Source: Bacteroidales bacterium (GTDB lineage: Bacteria; Bacteroidota; Bacteroidia; Bacteroidales; GWF2-38-335). From it: a DNA stretch of 42,883 bases. The stretch spans positions 1 through 42,883 of the forward strand of contig JAFGXD010000096.1 in the NCBI GenBank assembly GCA_016936815.1, read 5' to 3'. Shown piece after piece: positions 1-5,645 of the stretch (within the stretch, counting starts at the first letter, position 1; each line of letters begins with the position of its first letter). A program made the position numbers and the translations under genes. The notes below the pieces were generated by a model. That model worked only from the letters and a program-made list of their open reading frames with translations, was not told where the DNA came from and did no database searches.

Positions 1-122
1 AATGCTTTTCATTTTTCTTCTTTTTAAGGTTAAAATTAATAAAAAACTCTAATTTTAACTTGTCTTAAAAAAACAGCCTAGTACCCACCCAATGCGGCTC
101 ATACACCAAATTCGAAGGAGGA

Positions 123-350
123 TTGTGTTTGAAATGTTACCGCAATAAGAAAGAAACAGATACGGAAAAACCGGAAATGTTTGAAGAAAAAGAAAGTTTG
201 GGCTTAACGGAAAAAGACCGGAATTATAGATATAATATGATAAAAGGCAGAATAGCTGAAACACTGATTCAAGAATTGTTTCTGAGTTTGGGATATAATG
301 TTTTCAGGTATGGAATGGAGAACACAATTCCCGGAATAATGGAGTTGTAA
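123..350 (+). pseudogene. Truncated N-terminal fragment of an uncharacterised protein
   Basis: This is a 75-codon frame opening with TTG at 123; an in-frame ATG at 177 gives 57 codons. The core reads NMIKGRIAETLIQELF and then LGYNVFRYGMENTIPGI, which has the look of a conserved N-terminal helix-strand module and not of random translation. I believe similar starts occur in longer uncharacterised Bacteroidota proteins, but I could not check this. The frame stops at MEL-TAA, and the stop codon lies directly in the left arm of a cassette-like palindrome (344-359), so the gene appears cut there. Function is unknown. It may instead be a complete small protein. Confidence 0.4.
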
Positions 351-486
351 CCGCTAAAAGCAACCGCAACCAACAAACCTCATTTTCCTTAAAAACCCAT
401 ACATTTTTTCCATATTTGGAAATATAATACTATTTTGCAATCATTTAATAATACATTAAACACGGTTTTAGCGTTTATTGTTGAAC
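344..486. other. attC-like imperfect palindrome between the fragment and the first Fic gene
   Basis: The left arm contains GTAAC followed by CGCTAAAA (352-359). The right arm contains the exact reverse complement TTTTAGCG (466-473), followed by GTTGAAC (480-486), which fits the integron core consensus GTTRRRY. The spacer of about 106 bp holds no gene. The same CGCTA arm follows three other genes of this island. Calling it an attC-like recombination site is inference; a decayed terminator or a regulatory hairpin is possible. Confidence 0.35.
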
Positions 487-520
487 AGAAATCAACATCA
501 CATCAAGAAAGAAATTTTCA

Positions 521-528
521 TAACTTTG
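521..528 (+). promoter_or_regulatory. Putative -7 element (TAACTTTG) for the BRO-N/Fic gene
   Basis: The sequence TAACTTTG matches the Bacteroidota -7 consensus TAnnTTTG and lies 28 bp before the ATG. No good -33 TTTG is seen. The element sits in a small inverted repeat (TTTTCA 515-520 / TGAAAA 527-532). Confidence 0.45.
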
Positions 529-555
529 AAAAAAATCTCAAATAGAAGATAATTA

Positions 556-1440
556 ATGAAGACTAACACAAAAATATCCATACGTTTTTTTAACGACCGC
601 GAAGTGCGTGCTATTTGGGATGAAGAAAATGCCAAGTGGTGGTTTTCGGTGTTGGATATTGTAGCAGTGCTTACTGACCAAGACGACTATACAAAATCCC
701 GTAACTATTGGAAATACCTTAAAGCAAAGTTAAAGAAAGAAAATAGCCAAGTGGTTAGTGCTACTACCCAGTTGAAGTTTCTTGCTCCGGACGGGAAAAG
801 ACGTTTTGCTGATATGTTAGATTACAATGGTATAATTGCATTGGGTAAAGAATTTCCCGGAAAAAAAGCAAACCGATTTATTGAGTGGTTTACTTACAAC
901 GACGAGAGTATAGACGGGAAGAGTAAAACAAAAGCTTATGCCATATTTGAAAGTTCGTTTATCGAAAGCATTGAAGTTGGCACAGCAAAAGGCTTGCAAC
1001 AAATTCATGCGTATTTGTTTGGAGGACTGTATGATTTTGCCGGACAAATAAGACAAAAAAATATTTCCAAAGGTGGGTTCCAATTCGCTGTATCAAGATT
1101 TTTGGGTGACACCTTAAAGCAAATAGAAGCAATGCCTGAAACTTCATTCGACGATATCGTAAATAAATACGTTGAAATGAATATTGCCCATCCTTTTATG
1201 GAAGGAAATGGGCGAAGCACCCGAATATGGCTGGACTTGATGCTAAAAAAACGTCTCAAAAAATGCGTTGATTGGAGCAAAATAGGCAAGCAAGATTATA
1301 TAAACGCAATGATGCTAAGTCCAACAAAAAGTAATACTCTGAAAACTCTATTGAAAAATGCACTTACCACTAAAATAAACGACCGTGAAACATTCATAAA
1401 GGGGATTGACTATTCTTATTACTATGAAGAAAATAATTAA
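556..1440 (+). CDS. BRO-N domain fused to class III Fic domain protein (putative AMP transferase)
   Basis: This 294-aa protein has two parts. Residues about 8-115 resemble a BRO-N domain ([20 protein letters not shown]), a module common in phage-derived DNA-binding proteins. Residues about 125-294 form a Fic domain with the complete active-site motif [12 protein letters not shown] (212-223), where His212 would be the catalytic base and the E/N/R residues would position ATP. The C-terminus reads SYYYEEN; S287xxxE291 matches the C-terminal inhibitory helix motif (S/T)xxxE(G/N) of class III Fic proteins such as NmFic, except that Glu replaces Gly/Asn at the last position. It is therefore expected to transfer AMP (or another nucleotide moiety) to target hydroxyls and to be self-inhibited. 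The target is unknown. It stands alone in the first cassette-like unit, with no separate antitoxin gene beside it, as expected for a class III enzyme. Confidence 0.87.
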
Positions 1441-1721
1441 AGACAAAAACAACAAAACGCTAATCAAGTAGGCTGCCCCACCAAATAGACTGACAGAAAT
1501 ATCCTCTCACATTTTATCCCGACTCATCGGGGTCACTGTACCCACAGGTCTCATAAACACCGGTTCATTAAAAACTAACCCTATTTTCTCCTAACCAGAA
1601 ACCACCCCCCATAATCCCAAAATATTTCAATCAACAAAAACGACAAACGAATTAACGACAAACAACAAACAACTTAACATCAAACGACTTAACAACAAAC
1701 AAACCCAACAAAATAATACCT
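1441..1721. other. Non-coding spacer, G-poor on the + strand
   Basis: No convincing gene. Just after the Fic stop codon lies AACAAAACGCTAATC, another copy of the AAC...CGCTA arm. From about 1560 the + strand is almost free of G. From 1633 to 1712 it consists of degenerate A/C-rich repeats built from AACGACAAAC and ACTTAAC units. Confidence 0.6.
1633..1712. repeat. Degenerate short tandem repeats (AACGACAAAC / ACTTAACA type)
   Basis: Units such as CGACAAAC, AACAACAAAC and CTTAACATCAAACGA recur irregularly over about 80 bp. The tract has almost no G on this strand and no coding potential. Confidence 0.5.
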
Positions 1722-1860
1722 CCAAATCCCAAAAACTCTTCCCACCATTCTAACCCAAAAAAACCACGCAAACATCATTTTTCTATAAACACATACAAAT
1801 TTCCCAATTATTGTATATATTGTACAGTTTTTCAGTGAAATAGTATATATTATCACGTTA
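1722..1860. repeat. Long direct repeat, copy 1, ending at a GTTA core
   Basis: This ~139-bp block recurs at 3975-4115 with roughly 85% identity by eye. It begins CCAAATCCCAAAAA and ends in AGTGAAATAGTATA followed by a few bases and GTTA. Homology between the copies stops at GTTA; beyond it this copy reads GGC (GTTAGGC, fitting GTTRRRY) and leads straight into the next gene. In an integron-like reading this is the attC site of the preceding cassette. Confidence 0.75.
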
Positions 1861-1900
1861 GGCAAAATGTAAAATGAGCGGAACAACTCAGACAACAGTG

Positions 1901-2863
1901 ATGATAAGAACAAGTATATTATTAGTTTTCTTTTCAGTTTTGGCATTAGGACAAAACAATAATGAAAAGGTTTTGCTTGCTTCAGAAGGCAAATATTCTC
2001 AATATTATGTTGAATTAGACAAAAACATGGGATATTTAATAGCTCTAGAAAATTACTATTCTAAAGCTGGAAGATATTATGTAGCAACATATATTGACAC
2101 TTTGGCTAAAAGTGAAGATAATAATGAAATTCTATTTATTGGAAATAAATCCAAAATTCAATTAATCAACAAAGAACCTAATATTGTTATAATGGAGAAT
2201 CTCCAAGAAAGCATAAAGTCATTGAAACTCGACACAGTTAATGATACTACTTATGCATTCATTGACTTAAACAATGGTATTTGGTGGAGTTTTTTCCTTG
2301 AAATGTGCAAAGAAATTAATACAAGTTTTCCTCTATATGATTTTAGTTTCTATGATGGGTTTGGTTATTGGGCATCATTTAATAATAAAAATGAAAACTA
2401 CCAAAGCTTTCAAGCTATTGCAAATAATAAAGCAACCTATATTAAAGATAGCCTGACTGTTTTGAATACTCCATTAGTCGAAATAACTAATGAATTACTA
2501 TTTAAAATAGATACTATAAAATATGACGAATTAAAAGTTAAATTAATGAAACTACCAATGGAATATAAATCGGAAAGTTGGTATTTTGGAACAGTGTTAA
2601 ACGCATTATGTAATAGCCGACCGGAATATTTTTATAAATTAGTTGAAGATATACCTGAAAAAAAAGAAATGCTATTTGGAATGGCTGATTTAGATAAAAG
2701 TACTAGAAAAAAACTTAAAAAAGTAGAAACAAATTCTCCAATGCAAAAGGAATTCATTAAATATAGAAGAGGAGAAACCATGTTTGCAATTTGGGGAACA
2801 ACAATCTATACAGCAGGTATGATAGCTTTTTGGGGTGGAATAATATATTTGATTGTAAAATAA
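1901..2863 (+). CDS. Secreted or inner-membrane-anchored protein of unknown function
   Basis: The 320-aa protein starts at the ATG at 1901, where a signal peptide begins (MIRTSILLVFFSVLALGQ). An earlier in-frame ATG at 1874 would add nine non-hydrophobic residues ahead of it. The body is polar and Asn/Lys/Asp-rich, with no motif I recognise. Near the C-terminus a basic stretch (KFIKYRR-like) precedes a hydrophobic helix of about 20 residues (TTIYTAGMIAFWGGIIYLIV), so the protein is probably exported and anchored by its tail. The gene sits between a GTTAGGC core (1857-1863) and a degenerate partner GCTTAAT followed by AACGCTAT (2870-2884), as a single-gene cassette. Its low GC resembles the neighbouring Fic genes. 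No function is assigned. Confidence 0.75.
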   Translation: MIRTSILLVFFSVLALGQNNNEKVLLASEGKYSQYYVELDKNMGYLIALENYYSKAGRYYVATYIDTLAKSEDNNEILFIGNKSKIQLINKEPNIVIMENLQESIKSLKLDTVNDTTYAFIDLNNGIWWSFFLEMCKEINTSFPLYDFSFYDGFGYWASFNNKNENYQSFQAIANNKATYIKDSLTVLNTPLVEITNELLFKIDTIKYDELKVKLMKLPMEYKSESWYFGTVLNALCNSRPEYFYKLVEDIPEKKEMLFGMADLDKSTRKKLKKVETNSPMQKEFIKYRRGETMFAIWGTTIYTAGMIAFWGGIIYLIVK

Positions 2864-2908
2864 CACTTTGCTTAATAAACGCTATGCTTTAGAAAAACAG
2901 ACACTTAA

Positions 2909-2938
2909 TTGCATTTTGAAATATATTTACTACCTTTG
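2909..2938 (+). promoter_or_regulatory. Promoter of the second Fic gene
   Basis: TTG at 2909-2911, a 19-bp spacer and TACCTTTG at 2931-2938 match the Bacteroidota promoter consensus. The last four bases of the -7 element are also the first four of the palindrome at 2935-2962. Confidence 0.65.
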
Positions 2939-2962
2939 ATACTATCATATGATACTATCAAA
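2935..2962. promoter_or_regulatory. 28-bp near-perfect palindromic operator over the Fic promoter
   Basis: The sequence starts TTTGATACTATCAT and continues with ATGATACTATCAAA. It equals its own reverse complement except at two symmetric base pairs (C at 2942 and 2955). It also contains two direct copies of GATACTATCA three bases apart. It covers the 3' part of the -7 element and the expected transcription start, 10 bp before the ATG, where a bound dimer would block transcription. The downstream protein carries a DNA-binding-like tail, so autorepression is plausible. Confidence 0.7.
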
Positions 2963-2972
2963 ACTTAAATAA

Positions 2973-3929
2973 ATGAAACCACCATATAAAATAACTGGAA
3001 AGATTTTAAAATTGATTGCTTCGATTTCGGAAAAAATTGGAGAGGTAAATTCTGCACATTTAAATAAACCACCAACAGAATTAAGAAAGAAAAACAGGAT
3101 CAAAACTATTCACTCGTCACTTGAAATTGAAGGAAATACCTTGAACATTGAGCAAATAACAGCAATCATTGAAAATAAAAGGGTAATTGGTCCAAAAAAA
3201 GACATTCTGGAAGTTAAAAACGCAATTGCTATTTATGACTATTTGGACAATTTGGACCCGTATAAATTTGAATCATTCTGCGAAGCTCACAGAATATTAA
3301 TGAACGGACTAATAGAATCAGCAGGCAGACTTAGAAATAAATCGGTTGGAATTGTTAAAGGCAGAGAAGTTGCACATATTGCTCCACCAAGTGATATGCT
3401 TAAGCCTCTAATGAACGATTTGTTTGGCTATTTAAAAAATGACGATGATTTAGTCTTAATAAAAAGTTGTGTGTTTCATTATGAAATGGAATTTATCCAT
3501 CCATTCATTGATGGGAATGGTAGAATGGGTAGATTATGGCAAACACTTATTTTAAAGGGCTCCTATCCTGTTTTTGAATTTCTACCAATTGAAACCTTAA
3601 TAAAAGAAAGACAAGAACAATACTATGAATCTCTTGGAAAATCAGACAATACTGGAGAATCGACCGCATTTATTGAATTTATGCTTGAAATTATCCTTGA
3701 ATCACTTGAGGAATTATTAAATATTCAAAATGTAAGCTTAACTAATTTTGACCGGATTAATTTATTCAAGTCAATCGTTAAAAACGACTACTTTACACGA
3801 AAAGAATATTTAAAGAATTTTAGAGAAATTTCTTCAGCGACAGCAAGTCGGGATTTGAATTTTGCTGTTGAGAATGGAATTATTGAAAAGATTGGAGATA
3901 AAAATACAACGAAGTATAAATACAAATAA
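2973..3929 (+). CDS. Class II Fic protein with C-terminal winged-helix-like domain
   Basis: This 318-aa protein has the class II layout. An inhibitory helix motif SLEIEGN lies near the N-terminus (S49xxxE53G54), followed by the Fic core with HPFIDGNGRMGR (176-187; catalytic His176). The residues around GREVAHIAPP (about 131-139) fit the flap that docks the target. Residues about 262-318 (NDYFTRKEYLKNF, SATASRDLNFAVENGIIEKI) resemble a winged helix-turn-helix. The family is expected to transfer AMP to a protein hydroxyl, with the reaction held back by Glu53. The start codon follows a good promoter and a 28-bp operator-like palindrome. The enzyme is complete in all visible motifs. The target is unknown. 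Confidence 0.88.
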   Translation: MKPPYKITGKILKLIASISEKIGEVNSAHLNKPPTELRKKNRIKTIHSSLEIEGNTLNIEQITAIIENKRVIGPKKDILEVKNAIAIYDYLDNLDPYKFESFCEAHRILMNGLIESAGRLRNKSVGIVKGREVAHIAPPSDMLKPLMNDLFGYLKNDDDLVLIKSCVFHYEMEFIHPFIDGNGRMGRLWQTLILKGSYPVFEFLPIETLIKERQEQYYESLGKSDNTGESTAFIEFMLEIILESLEELLNIQNVSLTNFDRINLFKSIVKNDYFTRKEYLKNFREISSATASRDLNFAVENGIIEKIGDKNTTKYKYK

Positions 3930-3974
3930 AAAATAAAACCGTTAACTCTCCCAATCCCCTCAAACCAAAAAATT

Positions 3975-4115
3975 CCAAATCCCAAAAATCTTTTCCCCCC
4001 CTTCTAACCCAAAAAAACCACGCTAACATCATTTTCCTAAAAAACACATACAAATTCCCCAATTATTGTATATATAGTGCAGTTTTTTAGTGAAATAGTA
4101 TAAATAAACAAGTTA
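3975..4115. repeat. Long direct repeat, copy 2, ending at a GTTA core
   Basis: This is the second copy of the block at 1722-1860. The shared segments include TTCTAACCCAAAAAAACCAC, CACATACAAATT, CCCAATTATTGTATATAT and TTAGTGAAATAGTATA (here with T for C at one site). Homology ends at GTTA (4112-4115); this copy then reads CCGCC. The block and the sequence just upstream (from about 3930) are strikingly poor in G on the + strand. Confidence 0.75.
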
Positions 4116-4185
4116 CCGCCAATGCAACCACAGAAACAGCCTTATGTATAGATTTGTGGATTTCTTATACATACCAATCATTAAA

Positions 4186-4228
4186 TGTAAAGAATTTAGT
4201 ATTTTCTTTACAAAAGACCTTATCTTTG
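4186..4228 (+). promoter_or_regulatory. Promoter and operator-like inverted repeat of the third Fic gene
   Basis: TATCTTTG at 4221-4228 is a consensus -7 element 26 bp before the ATG. Just upstream, TGTAAAGAA (4186-4194) and TTCTTTACA (4204-4212) form a perfect 9-bp inverted repeat with a 9-bp spacer, covering the -33 position. A further CTTTACA lies right before the start codon. A second inverted pair, TATGTATA (4143-4150) / TATACATA (4166-4173), lies further upstream. Confidence 0.6.
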
Positions 4229-4254
4229 TATAGAATTTTTAAAATACTTTACAG

Positions 4255-5325
4255 ATGGATACATGGGGATTAACAGAACTGCCGCTAAACATTGAGTTAG
4301 AAACAAAGAAAGTTTTAAAAGCTTTACCTTCGGCACATGCTGCATTAGCAGAACTTAAAGGAATTGCCTCGACAATCCCTAACCAAAAAATTCTGATTAA
4401 TACACTTGGATTACAAGAAGCAAAAGACAGTTCGGCGATTGAGAACATAATCACTACACATGATGATTTATATAAATCGGAATTAAATTTTGATGCATTT
4501 AAATCATTGCAAGCCAAAGAAGTTCAAAATTATATTTCTGCACTTAAAAAAGGATTTGAGTTAATTACCAAAACTGGATTGCTGACAAATAAAAGCATTC
4601 TACTAATTCAAGAAGTGCTGGAAGATAATAAAGCTGGATTTAGAAAACTCCCTGGAACTGCATTGAAAAATGCGGCAACTGGAGAGACCATTTACACTCC
4701 GCCTCAAGATTATGATGAAATAATAAGGCTAATGACAAATCTTGAACGGTACATTAATGATTCGGAAATCCAAGATTGTGATCCTTTAATAAAAATGGCA
4801 ATAATACATTTTCAATTTGAAAGTATTCATCCATTTTATGACGGAAACGGTAGAACAGGTAGAATAATAAATATTCTTTATCTGATTTTGGAAAAACTTC
4901 AAACCTTACCGATTCTATATTTAAGTAATTATATCATAAAACATAAATCTGACTACTATAGGTATTTACAAAAAGTAAAAGATGAGAATTTGTGGGAGGA
5001 TTGGGTTATCTTCATGATTAGAGGAGTTGAAGAAACTGCACGAGAAACTATTGAATTGATTGTCAGGATTAAAGAATTAATGCTCGACTACAAACACCGA
5101 CTTCGTGCCAATTACAAATTTTACAGTCAGGATTTACTTAACAACCTGTTTAAGCACCCTTACACAAAGATTGAATTTGTTGTAAATGACATTGGTGTGT
5201 CAAGATTGACTGCAGCAAATTATTTAAATAAATTATCAGATGATAATATGCTGAGAAAAGATAAGTTGGGGACAGGAAATTATTACATAAATGAAGAATT
5301 ATTTGACTTATTGACAAAGAGATGA
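4255..5325 (+). CDS. Class II Fic protein, BtFic/SoFic-like, with C-terminal winged helix
   Basis: The 356-aa protein follows the architecture of the Bacteroides and Shewanella Fic proteins of known structure. It has an N-terminal Fic_N region (about 5-90) with the inhibitory motif SSAIEN (S59xxxE63N64), a Fic core with HPFYDGNGRTGR (192-203; catalytic His192) and a C-terminal winged-helix region (about 290-356; DIGVSRLTAANYLNKL looks like the recognition helix). The flap region GETIYTPP (143-150) is present. It is expected to be a self-inhibited AMP transferase; some members modify themselves or DNA topoisomerase subunits, but no target can be read here. The start at 4255 follows a consensus promoter with an inverted repeat. 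The gene is alone in a unit with terminal inverted repeats. Confidence 0.92.
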   Translation: MDTWGLTELPLNIELETKKVLKALPSAHAALAELKGIASTIPNQKILINTLGLQEAKDSSAIENIITTHDDLYKSELNFDAFKSLQAKEVQNYISALKKGFELITKTGLLTNKSILLIQEVLEDNKAGFRKLPGTALKNAATGETIYTPPQDYDEIIRLMTNLERYINDSEIQDCDPLIKMAIIHFQFESIHPFYDGNGRTGRIINILYLILEKLQTLPILYLSNYIIKHKSDYYRYLQKVKDENLWEDWVIFMIRGVEETARETIELIVRIKELMLDYKHRLRANYKFYSQDLLNNLFKHPYTKIEFVVNDIGVSRLTAANYLNKLSDDNMLRKDKLGTGNYYINEELFDLLTKR

Positions 5326-5334
5326 AAAAGCACA

Positions 5335-5450
5335 GGCGGTAACACACGCTATACCCCATATGGGCCGTGTCCACGTTGAAAGTGAAAAACTTGAAAAAAG
5401 CAGAACGTCTCGCTAGGACGGGTGAAATTTAAGCCCACACGGGTCATAGC
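5335..5450. other. attC-like imperfect palindrome after the third Fic gene
   Basis: The left arm GGCGGTAACACACGCTATAC (5335-5354) with CCGTGT (5365-5370) is mirrored by ACACGG (5438-5443) and GGGTCATAGC (5441-5450). The arms pair with bulges, as in attC sites with unpaired bases. The outer right core (expected GTGTGTTAC...) is lost. The loop of about 65 bp has no gene. From 5451 to 5573 nothing recognisable is seen beyond repeats of TTGCGA. Confidence 0.4.
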
Positions 5451-5573
5451 TAGAACATTCAACCAAGACTTTCTACATTTGCATAGCCAAACTAACAAAT
5501 AGCCATTAGTGTTTAGGTTTTAAATAACGAGATTGCGATGAAGCGAAATTGCGAAGGCGGGAATTGGGAAACC

Positions 5574-5607
5574 AAAAAAAGGCCGTACCGGGCGATACGA
5601 CCTTTTT
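5574..5607. terminator. Bidirectional intrinsic terminator
   Basis: A-run, GGCCGTA, 8-base loop, TACGACC, T-run: the stem has one mismatch and is flanked by A5 and T5, so it can act on both strands. It separates the + strand Fic island from the convergent gene ending at 5646. A second short hairpin (AACTACGG / CCGTAGTT, 5626-5643) follows. Confidence 0.75.
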
Positions 5608-5645
5608 GTAAACAACCTATTACTAAACTACGGAACCGTAGTTAC

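Follow-up and report, generated by a model that had tools for sequence, protein, structure and literature searches.

Background

The left end of a contig from a Bacteroidales bacterium (GenBank assembly GCA_016936815.1, contig JAFGXD010000096.1) holds a run of Fic genes, and the question raised by this locus is whether these genes arrived one by one as integron-type gene cassettes. The window, i.e., the whole stretch of DNA analysed (42,883 nucleotides), is contig C33 from its first base in an assembly of 3.58 Mb, 192 contigs and 95.5% completeness. On the + strand, a short frame that stops near 350 is followed by a BRO-N/Fic gene, a gene with no known domain, a Fic gene, and a Fic_N/Fic/SoFic_C gene, which are treated here as the genes of four units, U1 to U4 (Table 1). 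Integron-type single-gene cassettes spread antibiotic resistance, and integrons carry anti-phage genes.

A preliminary description of the sequence had read the island as an attC-type cassette array, mostly of Fic genes, without a visible integrase. This reading was supported by lone units in other genera, by attC sites beside the units in relatives and elsewhere in the source genome, and by a search in which no integrase exceeded the cut-off in that genome. The island (approximately 464-5463) very probably consists of integron-type gene cassettes in a state of decay and without an integrase, resembling a cluster of attC sites lacking integron integrases (CALIN) and left over from an integron variant. 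The window alone is insufficient to settle the cassette nature of the units, which was established through the relatives.

Units are found singly in other genomes

Window positions 1-5640 were searched as DNA against 393 genomes of the order (E <= 1e-6; for most genomes, two candidates received a score), and 174 of these gave a match. Among the matches listed outside the source genome, each sat in one unit (approximately 468-1473, 2891-3940, or 4104-5344), and none spanned two. Best identities among the matches listed were 88% for the U1 unit, 90% for U3, and 85% for U4, the hosts belonging to other genera and families, while no match to U2 was listed; matches to the U4 unit begin at 4112 in two genomes (G321 and G028). 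For 29 copies (20 U1, 6 U3, 3 U4), 53 flanks of 200 bases or more were compared and were almost all unrelated: four U1 copies have at most 127 bases upstream in common, one locus has a repeat of its own flank, and the remaining flanks show no match. Single-unit matches and unrelated flanks together show the three Fic units to be movable on their own, as integron gene cassettes, usually of one gene, are, and the units stand beside different genes in relatives. Plasmid and phage matches to the same query were at 60-80% identity, apart from a phage match of 58 bases (84.5%).

attC sites in relatives and in the source genome

Thirteen attC sites, one of them from contig C136 of the source genome, were aligned (alignment A7) and used as seeds of a covariance model (R3). 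In this alignment, 84.0% of the cells were paired compared to 64.9 +/- 2.0 after shuffling, and both partners vary in 16 of the 21 pairs; the covariation score was 0.419 (0.142 shuffled). None of 500 shuffles reached these values, and slid versions stayed at or below 0.187. R3 matched 124 of 198 genomes of the order at E <= 0.001 (E-values being rough), including the source genome. There, the seed on C136 scored 110.9 bits, and sites outside the seeds were found on C93 (52.3 bits), C85 (42.3 bits), and C161 (30.4 bits, E 0.001), with a second site on C93, at the contig start and cut by the contig end, at 37.9 bits. A genome of the same genus (G001) has 20 R3 sites (E < 0.003) on 11 contigs. 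The preliminary description had proposed running an attC covariance model; the model finds sites elsewhere in the source genome, and no significant one in the window itself (see below).

Sites with the paired arms of attC stand beside copies of the units in relatives, both among the seeds (either side of U3 in L113, 114 and 95.6 bits; beside U1 in L115, 98.6 bits) and outside them (U4 in L114, 49.8 bits; upstream side of U1 in L118, 60.4 bits; U3 in L120, 57.5 bits), and a further U3 copy has a site of 34.3 bits (L133). The U3 copy of G097 lies on a contig of 11,161 bases whose 13 frames share a single strand; it has nine attC matches, each of them a model seed. In the relatives' arrays, cassette starts were compared with their own R'' over the six bases after GTT, based on 110 attC matches (19/28, 56/59, and 35/35 of three sets), after partial, weak, and opposite-strand ones had been left out; pairs at least 2600 bases apart or without AAC or GTT were likewise excluded. 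The match was perfect in 45 of 54 neighbouring pairs, with a mean of 5.28 out of 6 compared to 2.32 after shuffling and a maximum of 2.89 in 2000 shuffles.

Two other approaches to attC were rejected. The first covariance model (R1, six hand-made seeds) yielded zero matches in the whole genome and elsewhere only background (E >= 0.4), probably due to N columns having been modelled as a base. A consensus pattern for attC matched three contigs titled as other groups among genome contigs and none among viral contigs, so this consensus was considered wrong.

Unit boundaries and decay in the window

The GTT cores named in the preliminary description are all present as letters. Those at 1857 and 4112 are real cassette starts, as the conserved leader described below ends there and the U4 copies in two relatives begin at 4112; GTTGAAC at 480, proposed as the start of the first Fic unit, is not, the U1 junction lying further upstream (Table 1). 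In the two relatives whose match extends to this junction, it reads TAAGCGTTTATTG (L115) and TTAGCATTTATTG (L117). The arm of type AAC-n-CGCTA said to be common to the units also consists of letters that are present, and these represent four different things: at 5341-5351 the place where R'' of a degraded attC ends and its L'' begins, at 1452-1465 a stretch that includes U1's own R'', at 2876-2884 a direct join between two successive units, and at 349-356 a sequence with no support as attC.

Directly after the U2 end, GCTATGC occupies the position at which the G097 copy of U3 starts with GTTAGGC, with no attC between U2 and U3. This copy is 90% identical over 2891-3940, lies between two attC sites, and ends in AAAGCCTAAC. 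U4 retains R', R'', and the attC arms. The island is therefore regarded as a decayed remnant: an attC is missing between U2 and U3, the U3 ends are changed relative to G097, and only arms are left of the U4 attC. A DNA search of 198 genomes with this degraded attC returned the source genome as the sole match.

Agreement between unit start and unit end was tested without gaps against a background of 2928 other GTT sites of the source DNA, yielding p = 0.004 for U4 and 0.016 for the unit on C136 (combined with U1 and U2, 0.001). In a local version of the test, p was 0.01 for U4, 0.034 for the C136 unit, 0.009 for U1, and 0.15 for U2.

Table 1 Features assigned in the island, with positions in the window
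Feature	Position	Strand	Basis
Cassette U1	464..1464	+	junction GGTTTTAGCG at 464-473; own R'' ACGCTAAT at 1457-1464; matches in the order within 468-1473; attC after U1 in L115
Cassette U2	1857..2876	+	R' GTTAGGC at 1857 (leader ends at GTT); R'' TTGCTTAAT at 2868-2876; gene 1874-2863
Cassette U3	2881..3946	+	start GCTATGC (2881-2887); end AAAACCGTTAAC; both attC sites lost; compared with G097 copy
Cassette U4	4112..5343	+	R' GTTACCGCC at 4112-4120; own R'' GGCGGTAAC at 5335-5343, 9/9 complementary, just after the gene
Degraded attC of U4	5335..5463	+	arms at about 5347-5365 and 5433-5450; ATT in place of the expected GTT; bottom-strand hairpin z -0.47; R3 8.7 bits, E 4.4
Leader copy S0 before U1 (attI-like by its end, decayed)	360..463	+	aligned with S1, S2, C136 and C85; R2 79.5 bits
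Leader copy S1	1742..1856	+	alignment, R2; homology to C136 from 1557
Leader copy S2	3995..4111	+	alignment, R2; GTT preceded by AATAAACAA, which differs from TATAAACNA at one base
Gene of U1, BRO-N + Fic domain	556..1440	+	Pfam; PADLOC PDC-S04, 538.6 bits, nearly full length
Gene of U3, Fic protein	2973..3929	+	Pfam; PADLOC SoFic, weaker, 156.9 bits
Gene of U4, Fic_N + Fic + SoFic C-terminal domain	4255..5325	+	Pfam; PADLOC SoFic, 390.9 bits, nearly full length

A leader element and its attI-like end

A leader of approximately 120 bases precedes U1, U2, and U4 as well as the cassettes on C136 and C85, ending at GTT each time. It belongs to a longer, dispersed repeat, copies of which lie on C27 and C56 without attC; the long spacers of the supposed array are thus a separate repeated element. 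A leader model (R2) gave only background in 59 other genomes and in other genera, and an attI conserved over the full leader length was discarded, since only the last bases of the leader recur there.

These last bases form a core, TATAAACNA directly followed by GTT. For its analysis, 30 first-site rows were considered, of which 21 had a start matching at least 9/11 positions and one of these was too near a contig edge, leaving 20 array starts. With up to two mismatches, the core occurs at 9 of the 20 starts compared to 0.9% of 11,223 GTT sites in the same loci; the binomial p of 6e-14 is optimistic because the core was read from the same 20 starts, 11 of which are without it, and one of the nine positive starts (L220) is probably inside a gene. 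An earlier comparison was biased, as ten of the 21 starts had been picked by eye and G131 plus five sites of the source genome added, and the comparison of all 20 was used instead. The leader copies of the source genome have one mismatch to the core in S2 and C136 and three in S0, S1, and C85, and a looser core was found in 88 kb of source DNA only at S0, S2, and C136. Two core-type starts each were found in G001, G194, and G025, which suggests that a genome may have several attI-like sites. The core adjoins a recombinase gene in G103, where TATAAACAA stands before the first cassette, and in G131; at this position there are two mismatches in G025 and four in G096.

Some observations concern the repeat itself. 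On C27 (L108 4631-6260), three small genes, one acetyltransferase-like by eye, lie in a row between metH- and hisG-like frames, each preceded by a copy of the repeat of the window leader without attC. On C56, an ordinary gene is followed by another copy of the left leader part (window 1459-1650). A BRO-N-type gene cut at the end of C85 (L077) seems to continue at the end of C56 (L218 reverse strand 14-634), so the two contigs may abut. Four repeat copies in G054 (L047, L060, L063, and L065) end in TTTTTTAGTAAAATGCTATAAATAAACATG, like the end of leader S2.

An IntI-like recombinase beside the arrays of some relatives

The integron-integrase (IntI) family TIGR02249 gave five matches in the source genome, none over the cut-off, the best stretch reaching 55.4 bits. 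This stretch is part of a XerC-type protein encoded beside a hibernation-factor-like gene and EF-Tu, which as a whole scored 109.8 bits compared to 324.5 bits for XerC. Classical intI over the cut-off is present in 5 of 295 genomes of the order and hence does occur among relatives; three of these genomes (G008, G083, and G186) also carry attC elsewhere.

Another recombinase, IntI-like, lies 5' of the array and in the same direction in 4 of the 33 stretches taken for their attC sites (G025, G103, G143, and G096); these stretches (20, five of them from the source genome, plus 13) were not chosen at random, and in many cases the contig breaks off before the array start is reached. None of the 15 stretches taken around Fic matches had this array-type recombinase. 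The first cassette starts 23 (G025), 70 (G103), and 179 (G096) bases after the recombinase stop codon, with a cognate R'' at the first attC. Recombinases of the same type occur in G131 and G199, where the 3' end of the gene is 277 and 365 bases from the contig end, so the array could lie off the contig; no attC match was found in the 15 kb on the other side of the gene. The survey of the 295 genomes used E <= 1e-40, at which G131 and G199 are listed and G025, G103, G143, and G096 are not; it therefore gives no order-wide count of the array-type family. In G025, the first cassette after the recombinase (L223 1095-4876) contains frames assigned by PADLOC to type II methyltransferases and to a restriction enzyme, and a cassette can thus hold a whole operon.

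These recombinases resemble IntI in their TIGR02249 scores of 186-238 bits (five proteins, G096 being outside the scan) and in a SPLDxL-like C-terminus, and the best solved match of the G199 protein is IntI4, followed by XerA. They differ from it in scoring below the cut-off of 265 and in having approximately 90-390 residues before the recombinase part, where no Pfam family exceeded its cut-off; in this part, DUF5710 matches G025 weakly (E 0.003), and another SAM-like stretch is seen in G143. NF040815, a site-specific tyrosine recombinase/integron integrase family of XerA type, is exceeded in its cut-off by G131 and G199 and outscores TIGR02249 in G103 and G143, whereas G025, G103, and G143 remain below this cut-off (220) and the family, of length 263, is without the N-terminal part. 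Recombinases of Acinetobacter plasmids (TnpF in FJ012881; plasmid hits H16-H28) share 60% identity with the G199 recombinase over its C-terminal 65% and are without its N-terminal part.

Interpretation and alternatives

Each Fic gene very probably arrived as a cassette, a unit starting at GTT (R') and ending in its own R'' and attC. According to the mechanism we propose, the cassettes of the order would be cut out and inserted by the IntI-like tyrosine recombinase that some relatives carry 5' of the array; this enzyme would join the folded attC to an attI-like site ending in TATAAACNA before GTT, with excision and insertion between G and TT, and several such array starts per genome would be possible. 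In the source genome the genes are probably stuck now, because no such enzyme was found there and the attC sites of the island are eroded. Further, we lean towards a Bacteroidota-type integron lineage, whose IntI-like integrase, extended at the N-terminus and devoid of the IntI domain, would act partly in trans at several dispersed attI sites per genome and pass single, often anti-phage, genes round the whole order, the window being a worn outpost.

Several results weigh against this interpretation. Within the window, no attC was significant: R3 scored best at 5337-5463, with the values in Table 1, and found nothing for the other units. The folds are weak as well; the bottom strands, folded as DNA, were not exceptional, with z -1.15 for 344-490 and -0.47 for 5330-5460, and 24 and 66 of 200 shuffles, respectively, folded equally well. 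The palindrome reading was wrong for 344-486, and 5335-5450 falls within the degraded attC of U4. A crude scan for AAC/GTT stems in 87,911 bases found no excess over shuffles, and the ungapped match of start and end is weak for U1 (p 0.16) and U2 (p 0.23). As for the enzyme, most of the array stretches inspected are without a recombinase, and the IntI-specific insertion before patch III (profile approximately 180 to 237) is absent in five of the recombinases aligned with two classical IntI. Finally, the five stretches with classical intI (L039-L043, 3 to 14 kb) have no attC match, and classical intI was rejected as the array partner on this basis.

The latter absence also bears on the idea that a classical IntI, acting in trans or in an ancestor, inserted what are genuine cassettes, the array-adjacent recombinase being a bystander. 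The occurrence of classical intI in the order, in three cases together with attC elsewhere in the genome, is in its favour; yet it is the other recombinase that lies 5' of arrays in four genomes, in three of them at the short distances given above, and we consider the bystander role unlikely. Equally doubtful to us is entry via scattered GTT sites of attG type (such sites are treated in PMC12444791) instead of attI, where the TATAAACNA core would reflect a preference in target choice and not a dedicated site. This would agree with the several array starts in G001, G194, and G025, most of them without a recombinase, and with the starts lacking the core, but not with its enrichment over background and its position directly after the recombinase gene in G103 and G131. 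Far less probable still, and already disfavoured, is an ordinary Fic island formed by horizontal transfer and homologous recombination between leader copies, with the attC traits of the window due to chance. The dispersed nature of the leader repeat, with attC-free copies on C27 and C56, and the lack of an attC score in the window would fit such an island; however, relatives have the gene units but not the leader, and the units there adjoin attC.

The decayed cassette set thus shares with CALINs the attC cassettes and the lack of an integrase found in its own genome, but the attC of the window is too degraded to be scored, and the at least two scored attC sites close together that define a CALIN are not found there. 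With a chromosomal integron comprising attI and an attC array, the arrays of relatives share the attC fold, GTT starts, cognate R' and R'', and a first cassette near the recombinase gene (G025, G103, and G096); they differ in that the recombinase is upstream of the array and in the same direction, and in the several array starts of G001, G194, and G025.

Integrons are reported to be rare in Bacteroidetes; in the sections available, the IntegronFinder 2.0 study (PMC9024848) names only integrase-only elements, known from the preceding study by its authors, and a single complete integron found in Salinibacter. The available text on attC models for 11 taxa contains no mention of 'bacteroid' (PMC8352920), and Bacteroidota are named among the phyla with integrons in another study (PMC8618304). 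The IntI-specific domain is regarded as defining IntI, and CALINs as usable in trans, in PMC9668308. In the open-access literature, as far as its text was accessible, no report of attC arrays or of an array-type recombinase in Bacteroidales or Flavobacteria was found. The attC matches in 124 of 198 genomes of one order, apparently of Bacteroidota, contrast with this reported rarity. Were the array-adjacent recombinase responsible, folded attC could be handled without the domain held to define IntI, and the descent of IntI from Xer-like enzymes would become testable; such a system would also account for single defence genes moving between families in this group.

Cargo genes and other features of the window

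By family name, the cargo of the island would be anti-phage: scores for U4 (SoFic) and U1 (PDC-S04) place these genes in PADLOC defence families, whereas U3 is a weaker SoFic match, and the U2 gene matched no Pfam or PADLOC family. By eye, no cassette trait was seen at the two further Fic genes of the genome (C23 and C94). The Por secretion tail domain PF18962, a pointer to Bacteroidota, is among the Pfam domains of the window proteins. An inverted repeat with TTTGATACTATCATATGATACTATCAAA lies at 2921-2974, upstream of the third Fic gene, and is nearly identical in G097; it is perhaps an operator or promoter travelling with the cassette.

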